From contig NZ_JAESIH010000027.1 in NCBI RefSeq assembly GCF_016756745.1, positions 1 to 44,423 on the forward strand: a stretch of DNA of 44,423 nucleotides, given 5' to 3'. The position numbers and the translations under genes were made by a program. Below are positions 1-24,731 of this stretch, one piece after another. The stretch comes from Aminivibrio sp. (GTDB lineage: Bacteria; Synergistota; Synergistia; Synergistales; Aminobacteriaceae). The notes beneath the pieces were generated by a model. The model was not told the origin of the DNA. It worked only from the letters and a program-made list of their open reading frames with translations, and did no database searches. Each line of letters opens with the position of its first letter. Positions within the stretch are counted from its first letter, which is position 1.

Positions 1-52
1 TCACCTTATGTCCGGCGACGCTCCCTCTGCCTGAAAAATTAGCGGATTTAGG
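1..52 (-). mobile_element. CCTAAATCC element, copy 4 (partial, runs off left edge)
   Basis: Read on the minus strand, this matches the left end of the element at 4557: CCTAAATCC, a T-rich spacer, then CAGGCAG, GGGAG and GCATAAGGTGA-like blocks. Its terminus is at 52 and the rest lies outside the window. It is inverted relative to the copies at 4557 and 4857, so the five-gene block between them sits between inverted copies. The 5 bases next to its visible end are AGAAA; the other flank cannot be seen, so a target duplication cannot be tested. Confidence 0.8.
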
Positions 53-3682: not shown

Positions 3683-4465
3683 TTAATGCAGGCTCAAGCC
3701 CCCGGAGACGCTTATCGCTTGCCCCGTTACAAAGGCAGCGTCATCGGAGGCAAGCCAAGCCGCCGTTCCCACTAAATCCTCAGGGTATTCAAGCCTTTGG
3801 ATGGCAGAATTTTTTGCCAATTCCTCACTCATCTGCTTAAAGTCATGCTCCTGAACCGTTTCGCTTTGCGTCAACCCGGGACAGATTGCATTCACTGTAA
3901 TGTTGCCAAATTTCCCCGCTTCGAAGGCAAGCGCCCGTGTGAGGCCGACGACTGCTGCTTTGGAAGTGATGTATTGAAGACCGTTGCCACGTCCCATATA
4001 AACCGTGTCAGAGGCCATATTTATGATGCGGCCCCAATTTTGCGAACGCATGTCCGGGAAGACCTCACGTGAGCACATCCACATCCCTTTGACGTTTACA
4101 GCCATGACTCTGTCCCAATCGGCTTCGTCCAATTCATAAAACGGCCGCACAGCCCGCTCAAATCCTATATGGCGCAGCATGACGGCCGCATTGTTAACAA
4201 GGATGTCAACCTTGCCGAAGCGCTCACGCGCTTTACCCACCATCGCTTTTATCTGATTGGCGTCCGAAACATCGCACACAATCGGCAATACCTCGCGATC
4301 TTCCGTTGCAATCTCTTCGGCCGCTTGCTTTAAGACGTCCTCCGTAGTACCGCAGATTACAATATTGGCCTTTTCCTGATAAAGGCGCTTCGCCATAGCC
4401 TTGCCGATCCCGCGACCGCCCCCTGTGATAAGGGCTATACGACCTTTTAATCTTTCACAACTCAT
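3683..4465 (-). CDS. SDR family NAD(P)-dependent oxidoreductase
   Basis: A 260-residue classical short-chain dehydrogenase/reductase. It has the cofactor loop GGGRGIGKAM near the N-terminus, the NNAAVM motif, and the catalytic Ser and Tyr-x3-Lys (MASDT, then YITSK). The C-terminus ends GQAISVSGG, typical of FabG-like and alcohol or sugar dehydrogenases. The frame extends to 4552, but the ATG at 4465 has an AAGGAGG site 8 nt upstream, so the shorter form is chosen. It is the first gene of the five-gene leftward operon, whose promoter must lie in the roughly 90 bp before the mobile element at 4557. The substrate is unknown. Confidence 0.9.
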   Translation of the reverse strand: MSCERLKGRIALITGGGRGIGKAMAKRLYQEKANIVICGTTEDVLKQAAEEIATEDREVLPIVCDVSDANQIKAMVGKARERFGKVDILVNNAAVMLRHIGFERAVRPFYELDEADWDRVMAVNVKGMWMCSREVFPDMRSQNWGRIINMASDTVYMGRGNGLQYITSKAAVVGLTRALAFEAGKFGNITVNAICPGLTQSETVQEHDFKQMSEELAKNSAIQRLEYPEDLVGTAAWLASDDAAFVTGQAISVSGGLSLH

Positions 4466-4556
4466 TGTGATTTTCCTCCTTATTATCAGATTATCAACCA
4501 TACTCCACCTTAAGAACTTGCTTTTCGTTCTCTGCGGTAGAGTAAGAAACATTTAC

Positions 4557-4810
4557 CCTAAATCCGCTAATTTTTCAGGCAGAGGGAGTGTCGCCGGGCA
4601 TAAGGTGAATTCGCCTCCCCGGGGGCGAAGAGATACCCCCCTTGGGGCGGCCCCGGGGGCGAGGAACCGACATGGATGTCGGCTTCACAAGCAGGCAACC
4701 GGCAAACGAAGGGAGCCGCGGGACTCGCATGGGCAGCTGTCACGAACGACAATCTGCACCTCCCGCCCAAGCGCGCATGGGTGACGCTCCCCGCTGCCTG
4801 TGGATTTGGG
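4557..4810 (+). mobile_element. CCTAAATCC element, copy 1 (MITE-like, with TTTAC target duplication)
   Basis: A 254-bp non-coding element. It starts CCTAAATCC and ends GGATTTGGG. The two ends are imperfect inverted repeats of about 30 bp, sharing CAGGCAG, GGGAG and GTC blocks. The 5 bases on each side are identical: TTTAC at 4552-4556 and TTTAC at 4811-4815. That is the mark of a transposition event and fixes the boundaries. No transposase is encoded; short open frames inside are not conserved as proteins. Internal hairpins are visible, including CCGACA/TGTCGG at 4668-4683 and the GCAG...CTGC region at 4732-4757. Confidence 0.85.
4651..4796 (+). repeat. 146-bp near-perfect direct repeat, unit A
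   Basis: This segment recurs at 4920-5065 with a single difference that I can find (C at 4683, T at 4952). The offset is 269 bp. It covers the inner part of the CCTAAATCC element, from the CCCCGGGGGC block to the right-hand GCTCCCCGCTG. Confidence 0.9.
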
Positions 4811-4856
4811 TTTACTCGTGTGTGGAGACTATTTTATCACAATGTTAGGAGACAGT

Positions 4857-5080
4857 CCTAGATCCGCAGGTTTTTTCAGGCAGAGGAGGTGTCCGCCGGG
4901 CATAAGGTGAATTCTCCCTCCCCGGGGGCGAGGAACCGACATGGATGTCGGTTTCACAAGCAGGCAACCGGCAAACGAAGGGAGCCGCGGGACTCGCATG
5001 GGCAGCTGTCACGAACGACAATCTGCACCTCCCGCCCAAGCGCGCATGGGTGACGCTCCCCGCTGGGGTGTGGATTGAGG
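4857..5080 (+). mobile_element. CCTAAATCC element, copy 2 (degenerate ends)
   Basis: This 224-bp copy lies 46 bp after copy 1 in the same orientation. Its interior is almost identical to copy 1, but the left part is shorter (the AGAGATACCCC...GGGGCGG hairpin is missing) and the right end has lost the CAGGCAG block, ending TGGATTGAGG. The flanking bases (ACAGT and ATTTT) do not match, so there is no target duplication here. The identical core with different ends suggests gene conversion or recombination with copy 1. Confidence 0.78.
4920..5065 (+). repeat. 146-bp near-perfect direct repeat, unit B
   Basis: Second unit of the direct repeat described at 4651-4796, identical apart from one base. 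It is the core of element copy 2. Confidence 0.9.
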
Positions 5081-5173
5081 ATTTTTCCCGTCTTTTGACA
5101 TGAACAAGCCTCTCTATCACCGTAAGAGAGAATAAGCAAAAATAGAATCAGAAAAATTGTTCTATTCCGCTTA

Positions 5174-5202
5174 TTGACAGAAAAAAGACCGGAGAGTATA
5201 GT
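5174..5202 (+). promoter_or_regulatory. Consensus sigma-70 promoter of the first M24 gene
   Basis: A perfect TTGACA at 5174-5179, a 17-nt spacer and TATAGT at 5197-5202. Transcription should start near 5209, leaving a leader of about 45 nt before the ATG at 5254. The TGTCGACA palindrome covers the predicted start point. Confidence 0.8.
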
Positions 5203-5207
5203 TTTTT

Positions 5208-5215
5208 TGTCGACA
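5208..5215 (+). promoter_or_regulatory. TGTCGACA operator, site 1
   Basis: A perfect 8-bp palindrome that begins 6 nt after the -10 box, where a bound protein would block initiation. The same sequence occurs at 12281 (upstream of the GntR gene, same spacing) and 13067. The likely binder is the FadR-type GntR protein encoded at 12349; this is inferred from position only. Confidence 0.65.
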
Positions 5216-5253
5216 CGCGACATAAAAATTCATTCGGAAAGGACGGTAACACC

Positions 5254-6426
5254 ATGGCTGTTTTTTCGGCTCAGGAATACGGGGAACGCCTCCGGAAGAC
5301 CAAGGAGCGGATGCACGAACATGGCGTGGAAGTTCTTATCGTGTCCCACCCGGCGAACATGAACTATCTCACCGGTTTCGACGGGTGGTCTTTTTACGTC
5401 CACCAGGGGCTCATCGTCGCCCTTGACCACGACGAGCCTCTCTGGTTCGGCCGCGAGCAGGACAGCAACGCCGCCCGGCTCCTCACCTCCCTCCGTGAGG
5501 AGGACATCCTGGGCTACCCTGACAACTACGTCATGTCGAAGCTCCGCCACCCCATGGACTTCGTTTCGGGCATCCTGAAGGAACGGGGCTGGGACAGGCG
5601 TCACATCGGCGTGGAAATGGAAGGGTACTACTTCACGGCCGAGGGGTTCCGGGTCCTCGAGAGAAACCTCCCCGGCGCGGTAGTAAAAGACGGCACCCTG
5701 GTGGTGAACCTAGTGCGGAGGATCAAGTCGGAAGCGGAGATCGACCATATCCGCCATGCGGCCAGGATAGCGGAAAAGGTGATGAACACAGCCCTGGAGA
5801 CCATCGCCCCCGGGGTGAGGGAGAACGACGCCGCCGGAGAGATCTACAAGGCCCAGATCAGCGGAACACCGGAATTCGGCGGAGACTACACATCTCTCTG
5901 CCCCATCATGCCTTCCGCCGAACGGACATCTTCGGCCCATCTCACCTGGTGCACCGACCGAAGGTACGAAAAAGGGGACATCGTTCTCCTTGAGCTGGCG
6001 GGAGCACGTCACCACTATCACTGCCCCATTTCCCGCACCCTGTTCCTTGGCGAACCTCGCCCCGAACTGCAGAAAATAGCCGACGCCGTCATCGGGGGAC
6101 TGAACGAAACGGTGGCCTTCATCCGTCCCGGCGTCACCGCCGAAGAGGTGGAGGCGAAATGGAGAGAATCCATCGCCGGAACGGGAGTGAACAAGCCCTC
6201 GAGGGTGGGCTACTCCTTCGGTCTGAACTACCCGCCCGACTGGGGAGAGCAGACCCTGAGCCTGCGTCCTGCGGACACTACCATCCTCCAGCCCGGGATG
6301 TGCATCCACTTCATGCCGGGTATCTGGCTGAAGGAGTTCGGCTTCGAGTGCAGCGAGCCGCTCGTCGTCACCGAAAACGGATGCGAGCTCTTCCTGAACT
6401 TCGAGCGTAAGCTTTTTGTGAAATAA
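5254..6426 (+). CDS. M24-fold hydrolase, ectoine hydrolase (DoeA/EutD)-like, copy 1
   Basis: A 390-residue pita-bread-fold protein. It resembles the ectoine hydrolase family (DoeA of Halomonas, EutD of rhizobia), which opens the ectoine ring to N-acetyl-diaminobutyrate. Shared features include NYLTGFDGWSFYVHQ near residue 45, YPPDWGEQTLSLRP and PGMCIHFMPGIW. The usual M24 metal ligands are altered: Glu247 stands where the first Asp is expected and Pro258 where the second is, as in metal-free creatinase-type enzymes, so a true Xaa-Pro aminopeptidase is unlikely. It has its own promoter and operator and is followed after 8 nt by an M20 amidohydrolase. A paralogue lies at 17318. The exact substrate is inferred, not proven. 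Confidence 0.85.
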   Translation: MAVFSAQEYGERLRKTKERMHEHGVEVLIVSHPANMNYLTGFDGWSFYVHQGLIVALDHDEPLWFGREQDSNAARLLTSLREEDILGYPDNYVMSKLRHPMDFVSGILKERGWDRRHIGVEMEGYYFTAEGFRVLERNLPGAVVKDGTLVVNLVRRIKSEAEIDHIRHAARIAEKVMNTALETIAPGVRENDAAGEIYKAQISGTPEFGGDYTSLCPIMPSAERTSSAHLTWCTDRRYEKGDIVLLELAGARHHYHCPISRTLFLGEPRPELQKIADAVIGGLNETVAFIRPGVTAEEVEAKWRESIAGTGVNKPSRVGYSFGLNYPPDWGEQTLSLRPADTTILQPGMCIHFMPGIWLKEFGFECSEPLVVTENGCELFLNFERKLFVK

Positions 6427-23316: not shown

Positions 23317-23346
23317 GTTCATCGTATTTCAAGGCGGACCTATTCG

Positions 23347-23560
23347 CCTAAATCTGCAGCTTTTTCTGGCAGAGGGAGTGTCGCCGGGCATAAGGTGAAT
23401 TCGCCCCGCCAGGGGCGAAGAGATTATCCCCTGGGGAAGGGCGCCCGGGGGAGAGAAACCGACAAGGATGTCGGTTTCAGGTGCAGTTGTCAAGGACGAC
23501 AATCTGCACCCCCCGCCCAAGCGTTCCCCGGTGACGCTCCCCGCTGCCTGCGGATTTAGG
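23347..23560 (+). mobile_element. CCTAAATCC element, copy 3 (MITE-like, with ATTCG target duplication)
   Basis: A 214-bp copy with ends CCTAAATC and GGATTTAGG and the same inner blocks (CAGAGGGAG, GCATAAGGTGAATTCG, CCGACA/TGTCGG hairpin, GTGCAG...CTGCAC hairpin). The flanks are identical: ATTCG at 23342-23346 and ATTCG at 23561-23565, a 5-bp target duplication. The TTCGCCCC/GGGGCGAA stem and the GTGCAG stem differ in sequence from copy 1 but still pair. Its right end reaches into the 3' end of iadA and gives that gene its last codon bases and stop. Confidence 0.85.
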
Positions 23561-24731
23561 ATTCGAAGGTTCCCCGGACGGTGACTTCGCCCCCCTCCAT
23601 GAGGAGCCGCCCCTTCGCGGCCACGAACAGGGGCCTGAAGTTCTCGTCAAGGACCAGCACGTCCCCGTCGCACCCCGGGCGGACTCTTCCCTTCCGGGAC
23701 AGTTTCAGGTGGTCCGCCGGGTTCGATGTCACCAGGGAGATCACCGTCTCCCTGGGTATCTTCCCTTCCCGGAGCATCTCCGCCACCGATTCGAGGACCG
23801 ACTCCAGGGGACCGATCTTGAGCCCCGTCAGCTCCCCCTTCTCGTTGAAGGAGGGCATGGACCCGTTGCCGTCTGAGCTCAGGGTGATGTTCCCCGCTGG
23901 GACCCCCTGCTCCAGGAGGGCGGCCACCACCGCTGCCGTGGCGAGGCCGAACAGGGAATTTCTCCCCGGGGCGGCGGTGATGTCCAGGTACCCGCCTCGC
24001 GACCCGAAGGCTGCGGACTGTTCCACCAGGGCTTCGCACCTGGAAATGTGGGTGGGGGCGAACTGGGTTATGGGGATGTCCGTTCCCTCCATGGCCTCGA
24101 GAAGGGGCGTCAGCCCTGAGGCCTCGCTCCCCATATGGACGCAGAGACAGCCTGCCTTGCCGGAGAGGATGCCCCCCACCCGGACGTTGGAGGCGGCCCG
24201 CCGGATCTCCTGGACCGAGGGGTGGGAACTCCTGTGGTCAGACACCGCCAGCTTGAGGCCGATCACCTTGTCGATAAGGCAGAGGTCCCTCGCCACGGAG
24301 CCCGTGAGGGTCGGCGAGGGAAGGCCGTAGCTCCCCGTGAGAATCCACGTGGAGATGCCCTCCTCCTCGAGCCCCCTGGCCTTCATGAGAAGCTCCTCCA
24401 GGGCGCGGCAGGTGCCGTCGGTCCCCAGCATGCCCACGGCGGAAGTGACACCCGCCCGGACGAAGGAGGAAAGCTGGAGGGGCGGAGTCCTGTTCGCCGG
24501 GCCCCCTTCGCCCCCGGCACCGTTGAAGTGGACGTGCCTGTCGAGGATACCCGGCATGGTGAGGTTTCCCCCGGCGTCCACCGTCCGGAAATCGGCGGAG
24601 ATGCCTGAAAGAGCCACCGGGTCCGCCGTTCCGGCGGGATATACTGACAGAATACGGCCGGCGGCCAGAAGGATGTCGCACAGCCCCTTGTGTTCAGGGT
24701 CATATAGATCGGCGTTCCGAATCAAAAGCAT
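23556..24731 (-). CDS. iadA: Isoaspartyl dipeptidase
   Basis: A 391-residue amidohydrolase that splits beta-aspartyl dipeptides from damaged proteins. All the binuclear metal ligands expected from E. coli IadA are in place: His66 and His68 (HVH), Lys160 (the lysine that is carbamylated), His199, His228 and Asp287 (SSDGNG). Supporting motifs are GVTSAVGMLGTDGT and SDHRSSHPS. The reading frame ends inside mobile element copy 3: the stop TAA and the last bases of the Ser codon come from its terminus, so the original C-terminus may have been replaced or cut by a few residues. The nhaC gene lies upstream on the same strand, 134 bp away. Confidence 0.94.
   Translation of the reverse strand: MLLIRNADLYDPEHKGLCDILLAAGRILSVYPAGTADPVALSGISADFRTVDAGGNLTMPGILDRHVHFNGAGGEGGPANRTPPLQLSSFVRAGVTSAVGMLGTDGTCRALEELLMKARGLEEEGISTWILTGSYGLPSPTLTGSVARDLCLIDKVIGLKLAVSDHRSSHPSVQEIRRAASNVRVGGILSGKAGCLCVHMGSEASGLTPLLEAMEGTDIPITQFAPTHISRCEALVEQSAAFGSRGGYLDITAAPGRNSLFGLATAAVVAALLEQGVPAGNITLSSDGNGSMPSFNEKGELTGLKIGPLESVLESVAEMLREGKIPRETVISLVTSNPADHLKLSRKGRVRPGCDGDVLVLDENFRPLFVAAKGRLLMEGGEVTVRGTFES

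Follow-up and report, generated by a model that had tools for sequence, protein, structure and literature searches.

The window analysed here is the whole of contig C27, a stretch of 44,423 nucleotides from Aminivibrio sp., and it carries copies of a short repeat that belongs to a MITE family. The first-pass annotation had claimed four copies, two of them with exact 5-bp direct flanks; sequence inspection confirmed all four at their positions, as well as the flanks TTTAC (around 4557-4810) and ATTCG (around 23347-23560). The features, with the evidence for each in parentheses, are as follows.

1 to 52, minus strand: MITE left-end fragment, truncated at the contig start and with its outer end at 52 (sequence; exact end-pattern match C27:27-52, minus strand)
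4552 to 4556, unstranded: target duplication TTTAC, left copy (sequence)
4557 to 4810, plus strand: complete MITE copy of 254 bp, about 256-bp class, without a transposase ORF (sequence, genome search, fold)
4811 to 4815, unstranded: target duplication TTTAC, right copy (sequence)
4857 to 5080, plus strand: second MITE copy, decayed and lacking a 5-bp duplication (sequence, genome search, flank comparison)
23342 to 23346, unstranded: target duplication ATTCG, left copy (sequence)
23347 to 23560, plus strand: MITE copy of 214 bp, about 212-bp class (sequence, genome search, empty site in G002, fold)
23561 to 23565, unstranded: target duplication ATTCG, right copy (sequence; empty-site comparison)

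The copy at 4557-4810 begins with CCTAAATCCGC and ends with GGATTTGGG, and the copy at 23347-23560 runs from CCTAAATCTGC to GGATTTAGG. The copy at 4857-5080 has decayed ends (CCTAGATCC...GGATTGAGG), and its flanks match at two of five bases. Over 157 bp it shares 97% identity with the adjacent copy at 4557-4810, whereas no other copy in the genome exceeds 87% identity to that one, so it looks like a product of local conversion or duplication; its target duplication may have been lost or may never have been present. The copy at 23347-23560 also touches a gene, as the TAA stop (23558-23556, minus strand) of an amidohydrolase-like gene at 23556-24731 comes from the end of the MITE. This CCTAA end replaces the gene stop that is present at the empty site in G002 (window 23556-23558).

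The source genome of the window (G000; 2.94 Mb in 100 contigs) contains many relatives of these copies. The 254-, 214- and 166-bp forms used as DNA queries each returned dozens of genomic matches, and the end pattern CCTAAATCCGCN{0,20}GGCAG matched 157 times, compared with no match for the reversed-pattern control. The motif CCYAAATCYGC has 292 exact matches against 14 in its reversed control, from which about 280 ends, and thus about 140 elements, can be counted in the genome; the repeats are estimated to make up about 1% of it. Size classes of about 165, 212, 256 and 280 bp can be distinguished, with mean pairwise identities, for copies with duplications, of 0.956 (165-bp class), 0.88 (212-bp class) and 0.93 (256-bp class). 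The whole family spans about 50-290 bp, which is too short to encode a transposase, and terminal inverted repeats at fixed boundaries occur across its copies. The genome-wide search proposed in the first-pass annotation yielded many further copies; their boundaries are fixed, and about half of them carry an exact 5-bp duplication. This speaks against the drifting boundaries and general lack of duplications that it had named as contrary evidence.

Among the fetched loci, an exact 5-bp flanking duplication is found in 53 of 101 distinct inward-facing end pairs. In a near-identical set, 51 of 102 pairs show exact 5-bp flank identity, whereas 10,000 permutations gave 0.73 such pairs on average and never more than 6. 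Matches of any other length are rare and form no peak, with nine cases at 4 bp, three at 6 bp and none at 7 bp. The composite site C64:30798, whose flank repeat is longer, was left aside. About half of the end-to-end pairs are without an exact duplication, some of them through decay or wrong pairing. The duplicated 5 bp are of varied sequence, so the duplication is not of the TA type. Insertion sites are relatively AT-rich (about 52% AT, compared with 41% in their surroundings). The longest open frame across them is scarcely different from that at random positions (median 176 against 187 codons, p = 0.10), although 24% of the insertion sites fall in no frame of 100 codons, against 3% of random positions; in a G+C-rich genome this comparison is a weak test.

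Empty orthologous sites were found in relatives. When the copy at 23347-23560 is removed together with one ATTCG, the 160 joined flank bases align without a gap to the sister species G002. The site C64:36217, with CCGGG flanks, is empty in G001, where the junction is gap-free and the two flanking matches overlap by 5 bp; in G002 the site C64:34412 is also empty, though less cleanly and with a lower identity. A copy carried by G001 (C6:17329, CTTTC flanks) is missing from the corresponding place in G000 and G002, where the flank alignments contain gaps. For the 4557/4857 pair no empty site was obtained, as the G001 alignment starts only to the right of 5114. The possibility raised at the outset, that relatives never lack the element, is contradicted by the empty sites in G002 and G001.

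The MITE is present in four of the five genomes of the genus that were searched, with only a weak partial match in the fifth, G003. A sequence search of 56 further genomes from the order did not find it, and the transposase described below occurs in 17 of 61 genomes of the order, in several families and often as fragments. Among the genomes searched, the MITE was thus found only within the genus, whereas the transposase extends to further families of the same order. One copy in G001 (C1:179372-179817) contains an internal segment of about 48 bp that is apparently repeated in tandem several times, forming a minisatellite inside the MITE. Separately, contig C9 of the source genome (4.4 kb; L077) shares 99.6% identity with G002 C2 (L133) along 3 kb, compared with about 80-93% in syntenic regions elsewhere, which possibly reflects binning contamination or recent transfer.

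A partner element was sought by screening the source genome for PF13701, the transposase family of IS1380 elements, of which the CC-type ends and duplications of 4-5 bp are reminiscent. The search gave one match, an intact IS of 1,912 bp in contig C76 (L073:223-2134) with ends CCTAAATCCAC...GCGGATTTGGG, a single intact 533-aa transposase ORF (331-1932) and CGGTC on both flanks. Its transposase scores 67.8 bits against Pfam PF13701 (cut-off 34.7) and 174 bits (E = 3.6e-51) against the NCBIfam IS1380 model NF033539, just below the 180-bit cut-off, which homologues in three related genomes exceed. Further IS copies, of a second lineage, are interrupted at contig ends and are 92% identical at the left end; these broken ends pair by their 5-bp flanks, GACTT joining C22 with C7 and GGGAA joining C41 with C6. 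The IS in the relative G004 has an ATTTG duplication, and copies in G021 and G028 have no matching 5-bp flanks. IS1380-family elements captured elsewhere have 4- or 5-bp duplications (PMC4133298, Table 1), and duplications within the 4-5 bp of the family are seen in the source genome at CGGTC, GACTT and GGGAA. An insertion sequence with CCTAAATCC ends, which the first-pass annotation had recommended looking for, thus exists in the same genome, with 5-bp duplications and an IS1380 identity.

Both IS ends, CCTAAATCCGCACC on the left and CCTAAATCCGCAGGTT on the right, are conserved between genera. Over 16 bp the left end of the MITE is identical to the right end CCTAAATCCGCAGGTT of the IS, and over 14 bp a common variant of the MITE right end is identical to the IS left end CCTAAATCCGCACC. 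Beyond these 12-16 terminal bases the two elements share nothing and their cores are unrelated, which rules out the MITE as a simple internal deletion of the C76 IS. Another genome of the genus contains an IS1380 copy of about 800 bp that has undergone an internal deletion (L243; G003 C366); it retains both ends and is intermediate between an IS and a non-autonomous element.

The repeats are very probably MITEs moved in trans by the IS1380 transposase of the same genome. It is from the matching ends and the equal duplication length within one genome that we infer its action on the MITE. In this mechanism, the transposase, encoded elsewhere in the genome, would recognise the 12-16 bp MITE ends CCTAAATCCGCAgg / CCTAAATCCGCAcc and join them, staggered by 5 bp, to new target sites that are comparatively rich in AT; repair by the host would then produce the 5-bp target duplication. 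The original proposal of a MITE-like element without its own transposase, moved by transposition, is supported by the copies, the duplications, the empty sites and the IS partner; all of the checks suggested along with it had favourable outcomes.

Other origins can be considered for the same repeats. The MITEs might have been spread by a different transposase with the same ends, lost or unsampled, the IS1380 element being a bystander relative. This would fit the unrelated cores and the many old, diverged copies, as well as the MITEs in G001 and G002, which accompany a related IS lineage of about 92% protein identity, so that the driver may have changed over time. However, IS and MITE agree in both termini and in duplication length within the same genome, and young 165-bp copies (identity 0.956) exist alongside multi-copy IS ends at contig breaks, which makes a separate driver unlikely.

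Still less probable are two explanations of another kind. The first takes them as structural repeats (REP/BIME-like, attC-like or regulatory RNA) that recombination or a RAYT-type enzyme, rather than a DDE transposase, has copied; this would account for the AT-rich positions and for strong hairpin folding with z between -5 and -11. Each of the three forms tested has a terminal stem and internal hairpins (z from -5.2 to -10.7), with values of -5.2 for the copy at 4557-4810 and -9.9 for that at 23347-23560. Precise termini, 5-bp direct duplications and empty sites are nevertheless the signature of DDE transposition, and the repeats match no Rfam family (an Rfam scan of 4300-5300 gave no match), so that this explanation deserves almost no weight. 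The Tn3-derived miniature elements called TIMEs are similar in size (262 bp) and likewise produce a 5- or 6-bp duplication (PMC4133298), but here an IS1380 element of the same genome has identical ends, and the common end is 12-16 bp long compared with the 38-bp Tn3-type repeat. This 12-16 bp match, on the sequence evidence, points away from a Tn3 origin, which appears very improbable.

A much shorter form of 48-57 bp, CCTAAATCCGCAGGCACCGGTGACRCTCCC...GCGGATTTAGG, was found at about ten loci (L288-L297; C22, C33, C43, C47, C49, C61, C90, C15) and not found in G001-G003. Four of these loci have exact 5-bp duplications (CTTAC, GGGAC, GTCCC, ACCTC) and one has a 4-bp duplication. Near-identical copies of 49-50 bp occupy unrelated flanks, which suggests that the short form itself transposed rather than that the same deletion recurred in situ.

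Some elements are inserted back to back. In the source genome, six back-to-back pairs of ends are exactly 5 bp apart, compared with one pair each at 4, 6 and 7 bp, and contig C22 adds a seventh pair at 5 bp. With 150 insertions and 300 ends, 0.015 such pairs are expected, or 0.15 if one tenth of the genome is available, so that seven pairs are roughly 45-450 times chance. In three cases the IS lies next to a MITE (C76, C41 and C22), with the order GGGAA-MITE-GGGAA-IS-GGGAA in C41; other loci with 5-bp back-to-back insertion are L052, L058, L070 and L084, and G001 C16 (L149, L230). End-adjacent insertion could arise either from attraction of the transposase to existing ends or from a tandem intermediate. 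A tentative proposal, which stands a little below an even chance of being right, is that the IS1380 transposase needs no more than about 16 bp per end, propagates a 48-57 bp lineage and prefers insertion 5 bp from an existing end, so that tandem clusters of IS and MITE build up with a single 5-bp target in common.

Several known systems resemble this one in part. ERIC, Correia (CREE) and RUP typically have TA-type duplications and other transposase families; part of this background appears in the introduction of PMC4133298. These and other bacterial MITEs are likewise short, palindromic, high in copy number and thought to be moved in trans, whereas the present family duplicates 5 bp rather than a TA-type site. 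With the IS1380 insertion sequences (ISEcp1, ISPme1, ISPsp9) it shares the partner transposase family (PF13701/NF033539), short terminal repeats and a 4-5 bp duplication, but the MITE has no ORF and only its 12-16 terminal bases in common with the IS. TIMEs (PMC4133298) are also non-autonomous elements of about 260 bp with a 5-bp duplication and a stable folded RNA; they differ in their 38-bp Tn3-type ends and usually single copy, compared with IS1380 ends and about 140 copies here. In IS1380 TMos (transposable modules, PMC9330008), the transposase similarly works on ends outside its own pair, yet TMos carry adjacent host DNA, while the MITEs are free-standing and multi-copy.

This is a real MITE family, ordinary in kind, for which the evidence is unusually complete, and it is probably undescribed so far. 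The examined papers that mention both IS1380 and MITEs describe no IS1380-powered MITE, and such elements are hardly documented. The repeats coincide with assembly breaks and are able to reshape gene ends. Moreover, a single genome combines the IS1380 partner with about 140 probable substrates, empty sites and a minimal form of about 50 bp. Natural variation among these elements could show which ends the transposases of a clinically important family, the relatives of ISEcp1, require and which targets they choose.
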